Source: Curtobacterium pusillum (GTDB taxonomy: Bacteria; Actinomycetota; Actinomycetes; Actinomycetales; Microbacteriaceae). Taken from it: a stretch of 64,000 nt of DNA. Positions 43,401-49,402 of the stretch are shown in pieces. The stretch covers positions 186,001-250,000 of the forward strand of contig CP018783.1 in NCBI GenBank assembly GCA_002025645.1, read 5' to 3'. How positions within the stretch are numbered: position 1 is the first letter of the stretch; each line of letters begins with the position of its first letter. The position numbers and the translations under genes were made by a program. A model generated the notes under the pieces. It was not told the origin of the DNA. It saw only the letters and a list, made by a program, of their open reading frames with translations, and ran no database searches.

Positions 43401-43487
43401 TGACGACGTGTGAGACCACGGCGCAGGCCCTGGGCGGCGAGGGAGGCCACGACCCCACGAACGTGGCACGACGAGAGAGGTGATCGC

Positions 43488-44753
43488 ATGGCTGCCCGGA
43501 GCACGACGATCGATCCCACGAAGGACACCGAGCCTGAGGACACTGCAGCGGAGAGCGCTGCAGAGGCCGAGGGGACGGCCGCGCCGAAGAAGCGCGCCAC
43601 CAAGACCACCGCCAAGAAGGCCGCCCCGAAGAAGGCGGCCCCGAAGGCGAAGAAGAAGGCCGACGACGAGGACCTCGACGAGGAGACCCCGGCCGCCGAG
43701 ACCGACGTCGACGCCGCCGACGACACCGAGACCGACGAGAAGGACGCCAAGCCGGACGCCGCAGCAGCGGTCGCCGCCGGTGCGCTGGTCATCTCGCAGT
43801 CCGACGACGACGAGGCCCCGGTCTACTCGACGACCATCACGGGCGCCACGGCCGACCCCGTCAAGGACTACCTGAAGCAGATCGGCAAGGTCGCGCTCCT
43901 CAACGCCGAACAAGAGGTCGAGCTCGCGATGCGCATCGAGGCCGGCCTGTTCGCCGAGGACAAGCTGCAGCACTCGACCGGTCTGTCCAAGCCCGAGGAG
44001 CGCGAGCTCCGCTGGGTCGCCCGTGACGGTCAGCGTGCCAAGTCGCACCTGCTCGGCGCGAACCTCCGCCTGGTCGTCTCGCTCGCGAAGCGCTACACCG
44101 GTCGCGGCATGCAGTTCCTGGACCTCATCCAGGAGGGCAACCTGGGTCTGATCCGTGCGGTCGAGAAGTTCGACTACACCAAGGGCTTCAAGTTCTCGAC
44201 GTACGCCACCTGGTGGATCCGTCAGGCGATCACCCGTGCCATGGCCGACCAGGCCCGCACGATCCGCATCCCGGTCCACATGGTCGAGGTCATCAACAAG
44301 CTGGCTCGCGTCCAGCGCCAGATGCTGCAGGACCTCGGTCGCGAACCCACTCCGGAAGAGCTCGCCCGCGAGCTCGACATGACCCCGGAGAAGGTCGTCG
44401 AGGTCCAGAAGTACGGCCGCGAGCCCATCTCGCTCCACACCCCGCTGGGTGAGGACGGCGACTCGGAGTTCGGCGACCTGATCGAGGACACCGAAGCGGT
44501 CGTGCCGGCCGACGCCGTCGGGTTCACGATGCTGCAGAAGCAGCTCGAGAGTCTGCTCGACTCCCTGTCCGAGCGCGAGGCGGGCGTGATCCGCATGCGC
44601 TTCGGCCTCGGGGACGGCCAGCCGAAGACCCTCGACCAGATCGGTGACACGTTCGGCGTGACGCGTGAGCGCATCCGCCAGATCGAGTCCAAGACGATGG
44701 CGAAGCTCCGCCACCCGTCGCGGTCGCAGTCGCTGCGCGACTACCTCGAGTAG
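43488..44753 (+). CDS. sigA: Primary sigma factor SigA (RpoD/HrdB)
   Basis: 421 aa housekeeping sigma factor. The N-terminal ~125 residues are rich in Lys, Ala, Asp and Glu (disordered, Lys/Ala repeats like [20 protein letters not shown]). Region 1.2 begins at [20 protein letters not shown]; region 2 has [20 protein letters not shown] and [20 protein letters not shown] (2.3-2.4, -10 recognition); region 3 [19 protein letters not shown]; region 4.2 [20 protein letters not shown] (-35 recognition). ATG at 43488 has GAGAGAGGTGA upstream. murT follows after 4 nt, so the cell-wall pair is probably co-transcribed with sigA. Confidence 0.97.
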
Positions 44754-44757
44754 GCCG

Positions 44758-46017
44758 ATGCGGTTCTTCATCCCGATCCTCATCGGGCGGATCCTCCGTG
44801 CCCTCGCCAGAGCGCGGGGCGGGGGGTCCGCCTACCCCGGGTACATCGTGCTCAAGCTGGTGCCGAACTTCCTCCAGCACGTGACGCGACAGTTCCCGAA
44901 CGGCGTCGTCTTCGTGCTCGGCTCGAACGGCAAGTCGACGACGACGCACATGATCTCGGACATCGTCCGGGCGCACGGGCTCCGTGTGTTCACGAACCCG
45001 TCCGGCGCGAACCTGCCGCAGGGCATCGCGTCGGCGCTCCTGTCCGAGGTGTCGTTGACCGGTCGCCTCAAGGCCGACATCGGCATCCTCGAGGTCGACG
45101 AGGCCTTCGCGGTCGAGCTCGCCGGCATCCTGTCGCCGTCCACGGTGACGATGCTCAACGTGCAGGTCGACCAGCTCTACCGGTTCTTCGAGACCGAGCG
45201 CGTCGCGACGATGATGCTCGACACCGCGGCACTGTCGACGGCGAACGTCATCACCAACCGTGACGACCAGTTCCTGGACGCGTACGTCGGCACGGACGGT
45301 CAGCGCGTGCTCCGCTTCGGTGCGAGCGCCGAGGTCGTCGCCGCTGCGCCGAACGGCCTGCAGAACGCCGACGACTTCGACCGGCAGGACGCCGTGCCGA
45401 ACGTCGCCGACGCCGAGGTCGTGGTGAACACCGGTGACGGTGCGACCATCCGCTTCGACGGCGCCGACATCCCGGTCCGTCTGCCCGCCCGAGGTCTGCA
45501 CTACGCGGTCGACGCAGCGGCGGCCACCGCGACGGCGAGTGCCGCGCTCGGCGCGCAGTTCCGCGCCGACGCAGTGACGAAGGCCTTCGGGACGATGAAG
45601 CCGGCGTACGGCCGTGGTGAGCGCCTGCCCATCGCGGGCGAGTCCGCCGAGTTCACGATGTTCAAGAACGCCGCGAGCCTCCAGCTCAACCTCGACGCGC
45701 TGCCGGACCACCCCGAACAGGTGCTCATGGCGATCGACGAGGGCACGCCGGACATCTCGTGGATCTACGACATCGACTTCTCGAAGCTCGACCACGTGGA
45801 CGTCGTCTCCGGCGACAAGGCGTGGCAGATCGCGATCGCGCTCGAGCACGCCGGTGTCCGCATCGGCCGCGTCGAGCCCGACGTCGAGGCAGCCATCGCC
45901 CTCATGCAGGGGCTCGGCACGACCTCGACCGGGACGAAGAACTTCATCGTCAACTACGAGATCATGATGATCGCCCGCAAGGCCCTCGGCCACCCGGACA
46001 TGGAGAAGACCGCATGA
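44758..46017 (+). CDS. murT: MurT-like Mur ligase without zinc ribbon
   Basis: 419 aa Mur-ligase-family protein. The central ATPase has the P-loop VFVLGSNGKSTTTHMI and GILEVDEAFAVELAGILSPSTVTMLNVQVDQLYR, typical of MurT; the C-terminal domain has TPDISWIYDIDFSKLD with the Asp that activates the substrate. In Staphylococcus MurT a Cys4 zinc ribbon is inserted in the middle domain; here that region is replaced (PNGLQNADDFDRQDAVPNVAD) and the whole protein has no cysteine. In other bacteria MurT and GatD amidate the alpha-carboxyl of D-Glu in lipid II. ATG is 4 nt after sigA; overlaps gatD by 4 nt (ATGA). Confidence 0.8.
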   Translation: MRFFIPILIGRILRALARARGGGSAYPGYIVLKLVPNFLQHVTRQFPNGVVFVLGSNGKSTTTHMISDIVRAHGLRVFTNPSGANLPQGIASALLSEVSLTGRLKADIGILEVDEAFAVELAGILSPSTVTMLNVQVDQLYRFFETERVATMMLDTAALSTANVITNRDDQFLDAYVGTDGQRVLRFGASAEVVAAAPNGLQNADDFDRQDAVPNVADAEVVVNTGDGATIRFDGADIPVRLPARGLHYAVDAAAATATASAALGAQFRADAVTKAFGTMKPAYGRGERLPIAGESAEFTMFKNAASLQLNLDALPDHPEQVLMAIDEGTPDISWIYDIDFSKLDHVDVVSGDKAWQIAIALEHAGVRIGRVEPDVEAAIALMQGLGTTSTGTKNFIVNYEIMMIARKALGHPDMEKTA

Positions 46018-46787
46018 CGGCCGAACGGCTGACCATCCTGCACGTCTACCCCCGGCAGATGGGTGTGTCGGGCGACCGCGGGAACGTCGCGGCACTCGTG
46101 CGCCGCGCTGCCGCCGCGGACATCGACACCGAGGTGCTCGAGTACGCCCCCGGCGACGCACTGCCCTCCGCGGCGGACGTCGTCGTGATCGGCAACGGCC
46201 CGCTCAGTGCCATGCGGTCCCTCGGCGACGACGTCACCCGGATCGGTGCGCCGTTGCGCGACTTCGCCGCTGCCGGTGTGCCGGTCGTCGCGGTCGGTGG
46301 TGGGTTCGACCTCGCCACGAACGAGGTCGTCCCCACCGACGGCGCCGTCGTCCAGGGCTTCGGGGTGTTCGACGCCCGGGCCGTCCGCGGCGCCGAGCGT
46401 CGGGTGAACTACTTCGTGCTCGACACGAAGTACCCCCTGCTGCCGGGTGCGCCCACCCGCCTCGCGGGCTTCGAGGACCACGCCACGACGATCGAACTCG
46501 GCGCCGGTGTCCAGCCGTTCGCCGACGTCGTGTCGGGCGGCGGCAACCAGGCCGGTGCTCCCGTCGAGGGCGCGATCGTCGGCACCTCGTTCGGCACGCA
46601 CACCCAGGGGCCGATCCTGCCGCTCAACCCGCAGCTGACCGACGGCGTGCTCGCCGCCGCGACCGCCCGCCTCGACCGTGAGTACGCGCCCGACCCGGAG
46701 CGCACGGCGACGATCGACCGGTACGCGCGCGAAGCACGCGCAACCGTCGACCGCTACGTCGACAAGGCGTTCAAGCGGATCGCCTGA
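46014..46787 (+). CDS. gatD: GatD-like glutamine amidotransferase lacking the catalytic cysteine
   Basis: 257 aa class-I amidotransferase fold (CobB/CobQ type), partner of the upstream MurT-like protein. The N-terminal ILHVYPRQMGVSGDRGNVAALVRRA and the later GTHTQGPILPLNPQL with the conserved His are present. The nucleophile elbow, normally with Cys (AVCGGYQ), reads VPVVAVGGGFDLATN: Gly95 (codon 46296-46298) replaces Cys, and there is no cysteine anywhere in the protein. It is therefore unlikely to release ammonia from glutamine by the usual route. Starts within the murT stop (ATGA). Its real role with MurT is discussed in the findings. Confidence 0.75.
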   Translation: MTAERLTILHVYPRQMGVSGDRGNVAALVRRAAAADIDTEVLEYAPGDALPSAADVVVIGNGPLSAMRSLGDDVTRIGAPLRDFAAAGVPVVAVGGGFDLATNEVVPTDGAVVQGFGVFDARAVRGAERRVNYFVLDTKYPLLPGAPTRLAGFEDHATTIELGAGVQPFADVVSGGGNQAGAPVEGAIVGTSFGTHTQGPILPLNPQLTDGVLAAATARLDREYAPDPERTATIDRYAREARATVDRYVDKAFKRIA

Positions 46788-46882: not shown

Positions 46883-47107
46883 CTACTTCGACTCGTAGAG
46901 TCGGCTGCTCTCGTCGTGCCACTCGATGGCGGTCGCCGCGAGCTTGTCCTTGAACTCGGCGCCGTGGTGGGCGCAGAAGAACAGCTCGCCGCTGGCCATG
47001 GTCGCTCGGATGTACGCCTGCGCGCCGCAGCTGTCGCAACGGTCGGCAGCGGTGAGCTGGTGGCTGCTGACTTCGTCGATGGAGAGGTCCTGCACGGTCT
47101 GGGTCAT
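46883..47107 (-). CDS. DUF7455 zinc-binding small protein
   Basis: 74 aa. A single domain with two zinc-ligand pairs, ADRCDSCGAQAYIRA and LFFCAHHGAEF, spaced as in the actinobacterial DUF7455 family. The first ~25 residues (MTQTVQDLSIDEVSSHQLTA) are flexible. ATG at 47107 has AGGAGC upstream. Conserved in actinobacteria near sigA and the second type II topoisomerase, as here. Function unknown. Confidence 0.85.
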   Translation of the reverse strand: MTQTVQDLSIDEVSSHQLTAADRCDSCGAQAYIRATMASGELFFCAHHGAEFKDKLAATAIEWHDESSRLYESK

Positions 47108-47275
47108 TGCTGTGCTCCTCACGGATCGCAGGTGGTGCGGGTTGGTCCACCTATTTCAACACGTGATGCCTGAGAGTCGTGCATTGTGCAGCCCCCATTT
47201 CGCTCAGCGCGGATCGACTGTCCCCAGTCCGAGTGTCCGCGCGGCAGTGTCGGTGCGCGTCGCTAGCATCGGAAG

Positions 47276-49402
47276 GTGAGCTCCGACTACTCCGCACGCC
47301 ATCTCTCCGTCCTCGAAGGGCTCGAGGCGGTCCGGAAGCGCCCGGGCATGTACATCGGGTCGACGGACTCCCGTGGCCTCATGCACTGTCTGTGGGAGAT
47401 CATCGACAACTCCGTCGACGAAGCCCTCGCCGGACACGGTGACGAGATCGGTGTCGTGCTGCACGCGGACGGCTCGGTCGAGGTCCGTGACACCGCCCGT
47501 GGCATCCCCGTCGACGTCGAGCCGAAGACCGGGCTGACCGGGGTCGAGGTCGTGTTCACGAAGCTGCACGCCGGCGGCAAGTTCGGCTCCGGTTCGTACG
47601 CCGCGTCCGGTGGGCTCCACGGCGTCGGTGCGTCGGTCGTGAACGCGCTGTCGGAGCGCCTCGACGTCGAGGTCGACCGCGGGGGCAAGACCTACGCGAT
47701 GTCCTTCCACCGCGGGGAGCCCGGCACGTTCGACGACTCGAAGGGCATCGGGCCGGACGCACCCTTCTCGCCGTTCACCTCGGGCAGCGAGCTCCGTGTC
47801 GTCGGCAAGGTGAAGAAGGGCGTCACCGGCTCGCGGATCCGCTACTGGGCCGACCGCCAGATCTTCACCGCCGATGCGAAGTTCAGCACGAGCGACCTCG
47901 TGAGCCGCGCGCGCCAGACGGCGTTCCTCGTCCCCGGACTCGGCATCACCATCACCGACTCCCGGCCCGCCTCGATCGAGGCAGCCGCCGCGCGTGCGGA
48001 AGCCACGGGCACCACGGTCGAGACCGGTCCGGTCGTCGAGCGCTTCCGGTACGAGGGCGGGATCGGCGAGTTCGTCGAGCACCTCGCCGTCGACTCCGCC
48101 GTGACCGACGTCTGGCGTGTCCAGGGCACGGGCACGTTCACCGAGACCGTGCCGATGCTCGACGACAAGGGGCACATGGTGTCCACCTCGGTGTCCCGCG
48201 AGTGCGAGGTCGATCTGGCCCTCCGGTGGGGCAGCGGGTACGAGACGGTGTTCCGCAGCTTCGTCAACATCATCGCGACGCCGAAGGGCGGGACGCACCA
48301 GGCCGGCTTCGAGTCCGGCGTGGTCAAGGCCGTGCGCGCCCAGGTCGAGGCGAACGCCCGCAAGCTCAAGGTCGGGCAGGACAAGCTCGAGAAGGACGAC
48401 GTGCTCGCCGGCATGACCGCCGTGCTGACCGTCCGTCTGCCCGAGCCGCAGTTCGAGGGGCAGACGAAGGAGGTCCTCGGCACGCCGGCCGTCCGCAAGA
48501 TCGTCGACCAGGTCGTGTCGAAGCGGCTGACCGAGATCCTCACGTCGACGCAGCGCACCGAGAAGGCCCAGGCGGCGACGCTGCTCGAGAAGGTCGTCGC
48601 CGAGATGAAGACCCGTATCTCGGCCCGGGCGCACAAGGAGACCCAGCGTCGCAAGAACGCGCTCGAGAACTCCTCGCTGCCGACGAAGCTCGCCGACTGC
48701 CGCTCGCAGGACACCGAGGGCACCGAGCTCTTCATCGTCGAGGGCGACTCCGCGCTCGGCACCGCGAAGCTCGCGCGCAACAGCGAGTACCAGGCCCTCC
48801 TGCCGATCCGGGGCAAGATCCTCAACGTGCAGAAGGCCTCCGTGTCGGACATGCTCTCGAACGCCGAGTGCGCCTCGATCATCCAGGTGATCGGTGCCGG
48901 CTCCGGCCGGACGTTCGAGATCGACCAGGCGCGCTACGGCAAGGTCATCATCATGTCCGACGCCGACGTCGACGGCGCCCACATCCGGACGCTCCTGCTC
49001 ACGCTGTTCTTCCGGTACATGCGGCCGATGATCGAACAGGGGCGGGTGTTCGCCGCCGTGCCCCCGCTGCACCGGGTCGTCGTGGTGAACCGGGGCAAGG
49101 CCAACGACACGCTGTACACGTACTCCGAGCAGGAGCTGCAGGCGGTCCTGAAGAAGCTCGAGAAGCAGGGCAAGAAGTACCAGGAGCCGATCCAGCGGTA
49201 CAAGGGCCTCGGGGAGATGGACGCCGACCAGCTGGCGGAGACCACGATGGACCGCACGCACCGGACCCTCCGCCGGGTGAACATCACCGATGCCGAGGGT
49301 GCTGCGAAGGTCTTCGAGCTGCTCATGGGCAACGACGTGGCCCCGCGCAAGGAGTTCATCCTCGCGGGCGAGGGCCTCGACCGCGACCGCATCGACGCGT
49401 AG
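47276..49402 (+). CDS. parE: Type IIA topoisomerase B subunit (topoisomerase IV ParE)
   Basis: 708 aa ATPase subunit. GHKL ATPase motifs: LEAVRKRPGMYIGSTDSRGL, IIDNSVDEALAGH, the glycine-rich loop SGGLHGVGASVVNAL, and the transducer Lys in QTKEVLG. The TOPRIM domain has EGDSALGTAKLARN, SDADVDGAHIRTLLL, and the C-terminus RYKGLGEMDADQL. It lacks the large gyrase-specific insertion. GTG 47276 is 6 nt after TAGCAT (leaderless pattern). Convergent with parC. The assignment to topo IV and not gyrase rests on location and on the partner lacking a GyrA box. Confidence 0.88.
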   Translation: MSSDYSARHLSVLEGLEAVRKRPGMYIGSTDSRGLMHCLWEIIDNSVDEALAGHGDEIGVVLHADGSVEVRDTARGIPVDVEPKTGLTGVEVVFTKLHAGGKFGSGSYAASGGLHGVGASVVNALSERLDVEVDRGGKTYAMSFHRGEPGTFDDSKGIGPDAPFSPFTSGSELRVVGKVKKGVTGSRIRYWADRQIFTADAKFSTSDLVSRARQTAFLVPGLGITITDSRPASIEAAAARAEATGTTVETGPVVERFRYEGGIGEFVEHLAVDSAVTDVWRVQGTGTFTETVPMLDDKGHMVSTSVSRECEVDLALRWGSGYETVFRSFVNIIATPKGGTHQAGFESGVVKAVRAQVEANARKLKVGQDKLEKDDVLAGMTAVLTVRLPEPQFEGQTKEVLGTPAVRKIVDQVVSKRLTEILTSTQRTEKAQAATLLEKVVAEMKTRISARAHKETQRRKNALENSSLPTKLADCRSQDTEGTELFIVEGDSALGTAKLARNSEYQALLPIRGKILNVQKASVSDMLSNAECASIIQVIGAGSGRTFEIDQARYGKVIIMSDADVDGAHIRTLLLTLFFRYMRPMIEQGRVFAAVPPLHRVVVVNRGKANDTLYTYSEQELQAVLKKLEKQGKKYQEPIQRYKGLGEMDADQLAETTMDRTHRTLRRVNITDAEGAAKVFELLMGNDVAPRKEFILAGEGLDRDRIDA

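Follow-up and report, generated by a model that had tools for sequence, protein, structure and literature searches.

What does a MurT-GatD pair do when its glutaminase-like subunit has lost the residues of the catalytic centre? The question is raised by two adjacent genes of Curtobacterium pusillum (Microbacteriaceae), located between a sigA-like and a parE/gyrB-like gene in the 64,000-nucleotide (nt) stretch of contig CP018783.1 analyzed here, hereafter the window (positions 186,001 to 250,000; assembly GCA_002025645.1). MurT-GatD uses glutamine-derived ammonia to amidate the alpha-carboxyl of D-Glu in lipid II. Microbacteriaceae have group-B peptidoglycan, a textbook class for decades, in which the cross-bridges start at that alpha-carboxyl. 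A search of the open-access literature, subscription literature being outside its scope, returned no description of an enzyme that starts the group-B bridge; the MurT/GatD papers found there concern amidation, and none ties the pair to group-B walls. We consider it probable that the two Curtobacterium proteins together form an amino-acid ligase acting in group-B peptidoglycan synthesis, and that the sigA-parE interval serves as a cross-bridge locus with exchangeable ligases.

The first part of the answer lies in the proteins themselves. Pfam Mur_ligase_M, MurT_C and GATase_3 each match the pair above their own cut-offs, and the closest sequence matches in the PDB are MurT and GatD chains, including those of Staphylococcus aureus and Streptococcus pneumoniae. 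For the structure model of the GatD-like protein (predicted local distance difference test, pLDDT, 96), the closest structures are six GatD entries (Z 27.8-30.5); that of the MurT-like protein (pLDDT 94) gives similar Z against entries of MurT, of cyanophycin synthetase and of MurC. By all three lines of evidence, the folds of MurT and GatD are both present in adjacent genes. The NCBIfam equivalogs NF045635 and NF045636 are missed, at 90.2 and 57.3 bits against cut-offs of 800 and 400. An earlier reading of the window, made from its letters only (the sequence-only reading), described both proteins as free of Cys and placed Gly95 where glutaminases have their nucleophile. Both statements are correct: there is no Cys in the 419 amino acids (aa) of the MurT-like or the 257 aa of the GatD-like protein, and in the alignment with S. 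aureus GatD (SaGatD) the nucleophile elbow ICGGYQ reads VGGGFD, with Gly95 opposite Cys94. The same reading took the His segment GTHTQGP as conserved, which it is not. The corresponding loop of SaGatD is GTYLHGP, the catalytic His189 is replaced by Gln198, and His196 of the Curtobacterium loop occupies the position held by Tyr in intact GatDs. Moreover, four residues that hardly vary among 127 intact GatDs (Tyr19, Gly61, Cys95 and Tyr196) are found in 0-5% of 96 class-II GatDs, in which Gly60, Gly152, Gly199, Leu202, Asn205 and Pro206 are kept at 98-100%. The glutamine site is largely lost together with the Cys, and scaffold and MurT-interface residues are retained.

The replacement of Cys95 by Gly in nature is the same change as one laboratory mutation of S. 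aureus, C94G. In that species, GatD C94G or C94S, or MurT D349N, abolishes or severely reduces amidation (PMC6113224). GatD-C94G loses the use of glutamine, leaving NH3-dependent activity at pH 8.5 unaffected, and according to the authors the two subunits must act in concert (PMC3266927). MurT retains ammonia-dependent activity with GatD-C94G in S. aureus, so a dead GatD can remain a working subunit.

Is the other subunit still fit for catalysis? The P-loop GSNGKSTTT and the DISWIYDIDF segment, both named in the sequence-only reading, are present in the MurT-like protein, as are the ATP/Mg site of Mur ligases (a GxNGKS/T motif and conserved acidic residues) and the Asp of the composite triad, Asp349 in S. 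aureus and Asp332 here (the D of DISW aligned with the D of DTSW). Eight residues (K59, E112, D114, E115, N134, D138, R142 and R286) are identical in 120/120 MurTs of intact pairs and 102/102 class-II MurTs; the latter have gained invariants in the C-terminal domain, such as N311 in 102/102. The Cys4 zinc ribbon is absent, as had been noted, but its loss was rejected as a marker of the Cys-less state: the pattern is also missing in 13 of the 15 family MurTs with an intact GatD, and is matched by two MurTs of Cys-less pairs (L105, L107). The ribbon is limited to a subset of MurTs (PMC6113224).

How far does the loss extend? Among 199 sampled Microbacteriaceae genomes, the window's GatD as query finds some match in 189 at E<=1e-3, and a 39-row GatD profile matches 161 at E<=1e-6. 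The catalytic residues were read in 120 of these genomes: 105 hold only Cys-less GatDs, 10 only intact ones and 5 both. When identical sequences and those with fewer than 150 aligned residues were dropped, which excluded L259, 241 distinct GatDs were left, 108 Cys-less and 15 intact within the family, 6 Cys-less and 112 intact outside it. The order and class samples, with GatD-profile matches in 65/159 and 103/158 genomes, include weak distant matches, and the residues come from the loci returned or fetched. Cys loss is nearly confined to Microbacteriaceae, more than chance would give. The distribution (108/123 distinct family GatDs versus 6/118 outside) is in line with the expectation that the loss would track group-B walls; the 10 intact-only genomes and the 5 with both kinds would speak against it, if their walls are of group B. 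The five are G149, which belongs to the window's genus, and the fragmented assemblies G050, G060, G113 and G189. In the 108 family sequences, Cys is replaced by Gly (73), Ala (17), His (8), Ser (5), Asn (3), Thr (1) or Gln (1). The catalytic His is present in 15/15 intact family GatDs and 111/112 intact outside ones, the lone exception, L316, having no residue at the site. Four of the six outside Cys-less GatDs come from Bacillota metagenome bins and two, with Asp, from one other family of the same taxonomic class; the latter (L182 and L183, genomes G398 and G368) keep the His and represent an independent loss. The Clavibacter genome G099, assigned by a plasmid identical to C. californiensis, and three congeners (genus g31, 4/4 sampled) each have one GatD at E<=1e-6, which is Cys-less, and Tropheryma whipplei Twist (G013) keeps a Cys-less pair in a 0.93-Mb genome, accompanied by sigA and a racemase-like gene.

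A MurT tree was built from 89 selected rows by a quick method and rooted at the midpoint for display only; L097 and L102 form long branches. On it, the Cys-less label requires at least three changes. The first clade (40 rows, support 100) includes the window's pair and consists of family members except for L259, an unassigned Actinomycetes bin; the second (support 97) joins class III, the Gryllotalpicola-genus pairs and Bacillota bins; the third group is the other family with Asp in place of Cys. The Bacillota bins concerned (L282, L285, L292 and L305) have a Cys-less GatD, and this grouping of their MurTs suggests a transfer between phyla. The ten flanking open reading frames (ORFs) scanned around L292 and L305 are housekeeping genes, amidase, SH3 or without match, and offer no cross-bridge link.

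The second part of the answer comes from the neighborhood. In long loci, Cys-less pairs of all three classes adjoin sigA, ahead of parE; the coupling to sigA, proposed from the window alone, is conserved across Cys-less pairs. Either sigA or parE appears in the fetched flank of 90/108 Cys-less family pairs versus 0/15 intact family pairs, and a racemase-like gene in that of 37/108 versus 0/15 intact family loci and 0/112 intact outside ones, all of these being lower bounds given flanks of mostly 1.5-2 kb. Short flanks explain many of the pairs without sigA or parE. Neither gene accompanies L040 (G111) and L042 (G145, Amnibacterium setariae), which are second Cys-less pairs in genomes with another at sigA. 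For the Cys-less pair L259, the gene order is sigA, murT, gatD, diaminobutyrate transaminase, racemase. The region downstream of sigA was fetched from 40 genomes, with a sigA match in 39 and parE past the contig end in two of these.

What stands at this locus when the pair is missing? GatD is undetected at E<=1e-6 in 38/199 family genomes, among which 28 have a CofE-like gene (PF01996), 3 a divergent or fragmentary pair (G035, G087 and G005) and 7 neither; a MurT profile run on the 38 gives, for nearly all, only weak MurC-MurF-like matches. All 28 CofE-like genes found at E<=1e-100 in the 199 genomes belong to this GatD-less set, so the overlap with the 161 GatD-bearing genomes is zero (Fisher p 4.5e-26, kinship not corrected for). 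In 27/28 the gene lies at most 1.5 kb after sigA, the two being on separate contigs in G040. A F420_ligase (CofE-like) gene of ~233 aa is called within the sigA-parE interval in 19 of the fetched genomes, along with an ATPgrasp_ST relative in 18, a racemase in at least 10 and a diaminobutyrate transaminase in two; families were checked on single members, the transaminase scoring above the TIGR02407 cut-off. When searched against PDB sequences, neither the CofE-like nor the ATP-grasp protein found a match. Both states occur within nine genera (g7, g9, g53, g54, g68, g70, g73, g77 and g78), and the swap therefore happened repeatedly. ATPgrasp_ST is found at E<=1e-120 in 33/199 genomes, 26 of them with the CofE-like gene and 7 with a MurT/GatD pair (G016 of class II; G029, G097, G158 and G163 of class III; G107 and G116 resembling class III in score only). 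Altogether, GatD (E<=1e-6, intact kind included) or the CofE-like gene is present in 189/199 family genomes.

CofE, ATP-grasp and Mur ligases are separate families that all couple carboxylates with amines at the expense of a nucleotide. Because they exchange at one locus beside D-amino-acid and diaminobutyrate enzymes, they likely serve one biochemical step. The best account of this repeated exchange of amide ligases near D-diamino-acid enzymes is that they join the first residue of the cross-bridge to D-Glu in group-B peptidoglycan. The MurT-like subunit, whose ATP core residues are intact, would activate the alpha-carboxyl of D-Glu-2 of the peptidoglycan precursor as an acyl phosphate with ATP, this acceptor being presumed from MurT. 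The first residue of the cross-bridge would supply the nucleophile, its amino group, in place of ammonia from glutamine. In Curtobacterium, whose wall we take to be of type B2beta with D-ornithine (D-Orn) as bridge residue, that first residue would probably be D-Orn. The GatD-like subunit would split no glutamine and would be kept as a structural partner of MurT, for which S. aureus C94G offers a precedent, and the ligase in the sigA-parE interval would be replaceable by CofE-like and ATP-grasp ligases. In the wall of Clavibacter michiganensis, which is of type B2gamma, D-Glu and D-Ala are linked (2->4) by D-diaminobutyrate (D-DAB) (PMC9603630). This bridge in a genus with a Cys-less GatD, taken with the ligase exchange, leads us to propose that class-II MurT/GatD ligates a D-diamino acid to the alpha-carboxyl of D-Glu.

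A bolder version, to which we give an even chance, would make the sigA-parE interval the missing group-B cross-bridge locus, in which Mur-type ligases with a dead GatD (at least two independent lineages), CofE-type and ATP-grasp ligases were swapped many times. MurT with a dead GatD would add a D-diamino acid directly to D-Glu, CofE-like genes or class-III pairs together with ATP-grasp ligases would build two-residue bridges, and the glutaminase would have been lost because an amino acid replaced ammonia. The link between CofE or class III plus ATP-grasp and bridges of two residues is guesswork based on how many ligases are present. The sequence-only reading had already proposed a re-purposed amino-acid ligase with a non-catalytic GatD. 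The near-confinement of Cys loss to the family, the CofE swap, the racemase and transaminase neighbors and the intact core favor this proposal; the pair is nevertheless not universal in the family, as the 38 genomes without GatD attest.

Several findings weigh against a bridge ligase. The catalytic His is kept in 57/108 Cys-less GatDs, and the triad Asp332, not obviously needed by a mere ligase, in 102/102 class-II MurTs. Amidated D-Glu is among the muropeptide modifications reported for C. michiganensis (PMC9603630); the earlier reading would have counted D-iso-glutamine in Curtobacterium against itself, and this study concerns Clavibacter. The retained Asp and the amidated D-Glu both favor an alternative in which the pair still amidates D-Glu, with free ammonia, its glutaminase residues having been lost by relaxed constraint, and the activity of S. 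aureus MurT with GatD-C94G at pH 8.5 does likewise. We hold this alternative to be unlikely. It leaves the exchange with CofE-like and ATP-grasp ligases and the racemase and diaminobutyrate-transaminase neighbors unexplained, and the group-B bridge needs the alpha-carboxyl. Furthermore, ammonia fails as a substrate at pH 7.5 in the S. aureus work (PMC3266927).

The remaining contrary findings concern the locus and its occupants. In two g45 genomes (L224 and L255), the interval contains amino-acid ABC (ATP-binding cassette) transporter-like genes, not ligases (the L224 binding protein called by Pfam, the others by similarity or eye), and it may be an insertion hot spot. Ten of the 120 genomes read hold only an intact GatD, and nine of these were parsed at sigA-parE (G138 left out): G012, G021, G003, G014, G043, G168, G183 and G076 have gaps of 14-706 nt with no ligase-sized gene, and G164 has a 1,996-nt gap with no called gene. 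Seven of the 199 genomes have neither system (G017, G045, G047, G057, G108, G110 and G159), and three GatD-positive genomes (G049, G112 and G134) have a CofE-like gene of distant similarity (E 1e-38 to 1e-45). If the intact-only and empty-locus genomes have group-B walls, other ligases must exist. G012 and G047, with no ligase in the interval, each show two nearby ATPgrasp_ST-like matches (G012:C1:1891348-1894021 and G047:C20:341390-344072), which are possible alternative bridge ligases. Gryllotalpicola protaetiae (G112) and its congener G049 combine both ligase types, a Cys-less pair adjoining the distant CofE-like gene (L105 and L107).

The transporter-like genes would suit a Mur-type ligase for some other envelope or secondary product, with sigA-parE acting as a hot spot for unrelated amide ligases, and it is also true that CofE relatives make F420 and that ATPgrasp_ST is named for sugar transfer. 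Such a role is improbable in view of the 28-to-0 exclusion between the CofE-like gene and GatD, the presence of one or the other in 189/199 family genomes (intact kinds counted, 10 of the 120 read), the retention of a Cys-less pair in the small T. whipplei genome, and the D-diamino-acid enzymes inside the interval. The missing glutaminase centre might also be taken as the sign of a non-catalytic regulator or decaying remnant, which would bind precursors and form no bond. This is very doubtful: the eight MurT ATP/Mg-core residues are invariant in 102/102, no internal stops occur among the GatD-profile matches listed, and the ratio of nonsynonymous to synonymous substitution rates (dN/dS) among Curtobacterium-genus copies is 0.08-0.16 (four pairs, 92-95% identity) and 0.23 (a 70% pair) for gatD, and 0.03-0.18 (five pairs) for murT. 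By these comparisons, the fold, the MurT interface and the Mur-ligase ATP core are under purifying selection. A pseudogene was rejected on the same grounds. Finally, it is hardly credible that amidation falls to a second, intact pair, the Cys-less one being a redundant copy: both kinds coexist in 5/120 family genomes read, four of the five being fragmented assemblies, but 105/120 have only Cys-less GatDs among the loci read, and a MurT_C search of the window's genome (G000, 4.54 Mb, two contigs) gives one match, with GatD alongside, and no second intact murT/gatD pair, which contradicts this reading for the genome unless its two-contig assembly lacks a gene; the sequence-only reading had named such a second pair as evidence against itself.

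Features of the sigA-parE locus in the window (positions of the 64,000-nt stretch)
Feature	Position	Strand	Description
sigA-like primary sigma factor gene	43410..44753	+	Conserved 5' neighbor, 4 nt before murT start; named by eye
murT-like gene	44758..46017	+	419 aa without Cys; Mur ligase middle domain and MurT C-terminal domain; ATP/Mg core complete, zinc ribbon absent
gatD-like gene	46014..46787	+	257 aa without Cys; fold of a class-I glutaminase, its dead centre having Gly95 for Cys and Gln198 for His
Small gene	46883..47122	-	Encodes 79 aa with a single CxxC motif; separates gatD from parE; by eye akin to small genes likewise placed in other sigA-parE loci
parE/gyrB-like topoisomerase subunit gene	47276..49402	+	Conserved 3' border of the locus; named by eye

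The murT-like ORF opens with an ATG at 44758 and its stop codon ends at 46017; an alternative GTG at 44665 would give a longer protein, overlapping sigA and gaining one Cys. The gatD-like start overlaps the murT-like stop as ATGA. Four queries, for racemase, transaminase, CofE and ATP-grasp relatives, gave no match within the 64-kb window. A 15-kb piece of the 567-kb second contig of G000 matches a Curtobacterium megaplasmid over 91% at 84.6% mean identity, in keeping with the genus. Elsewhere in the genome there are three more GATase_3 matches and three strong alanine-racemase matches. Two of the latter (L357 and L359, G000:C1:2119436-2121189) are tandem paralogs beside a glmS-like ORF (by eye), one of them up to 46% identical to sigA-locus racemases; the third (L358, G000:C1:449770-450426) lies between FemAB-like and Ddl-like ORFs (both by eye). 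These alanine racemases are a possible source of D-Orn.

The gene pair, its replacements and the locus make the origin of the group-B bridge directly testable. If a bridge ligase is indeed what the pair has become, it would clearly exemplify a glutamine amidotransferase converted into an amino-acid ligase through loss of its glutaminase centre, with the dead subunit kept, and might offer a narrow-spectrum target against plant-associated Clavibacter and T. whipplei.

How does the pair compare with known systems? First, it shares with the MurT-GatD lipid II isoglutaminyl synthase of S. aureus, S. pneumoniae and S. pyogenes the adjacent genes, both folds (Z 27.8-30.5 for GatD and 25.6-29.6 for MurT against the models), the ATP core, the MurT Asp and the interface residues. 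It differs in having neither the catalytic Cys and His, nor the glutamine-site residues, nor the zinc ribbon; in a MurT that has lost R137 and gained invariants such as N311, S307 and Q309; and in its fixed sigA-parE locus, with racemase and transaminase neighbors in relatives. Second, the proposed chemistry, an acyl phosphate plus an amino acid, would be that of MurC-MurF, folylpolyglutamate synthase (FPGS), cyanophycin synthetase and the archaeal pseudomurein ligases, and the MurT-like model aligns with MurC, MurD, MurF, CphA and FPGS at Z 25-29. Unlike these ligases, the MurT-like protein has a short N-terminus and a GatD partner, and its sequence groups with MurT. Third, the CofE/F420-0:gamma-glutamyl ligase-like gene occupies the same post-sigA site (27/28) and is mutually exclusive with GatD, but belongs to another family (PF01996) and has an ATPgrasp_ST gene alongside in 26/28 genomes. 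Finally, the archaeal MurT-like proteins of pseudomurein synthesis provide a MurT relative that apparently functions without a glutaminase; GatD is absent there, whereas a dead GatD is retained here (PMC11915815 for the archaeal proteins).

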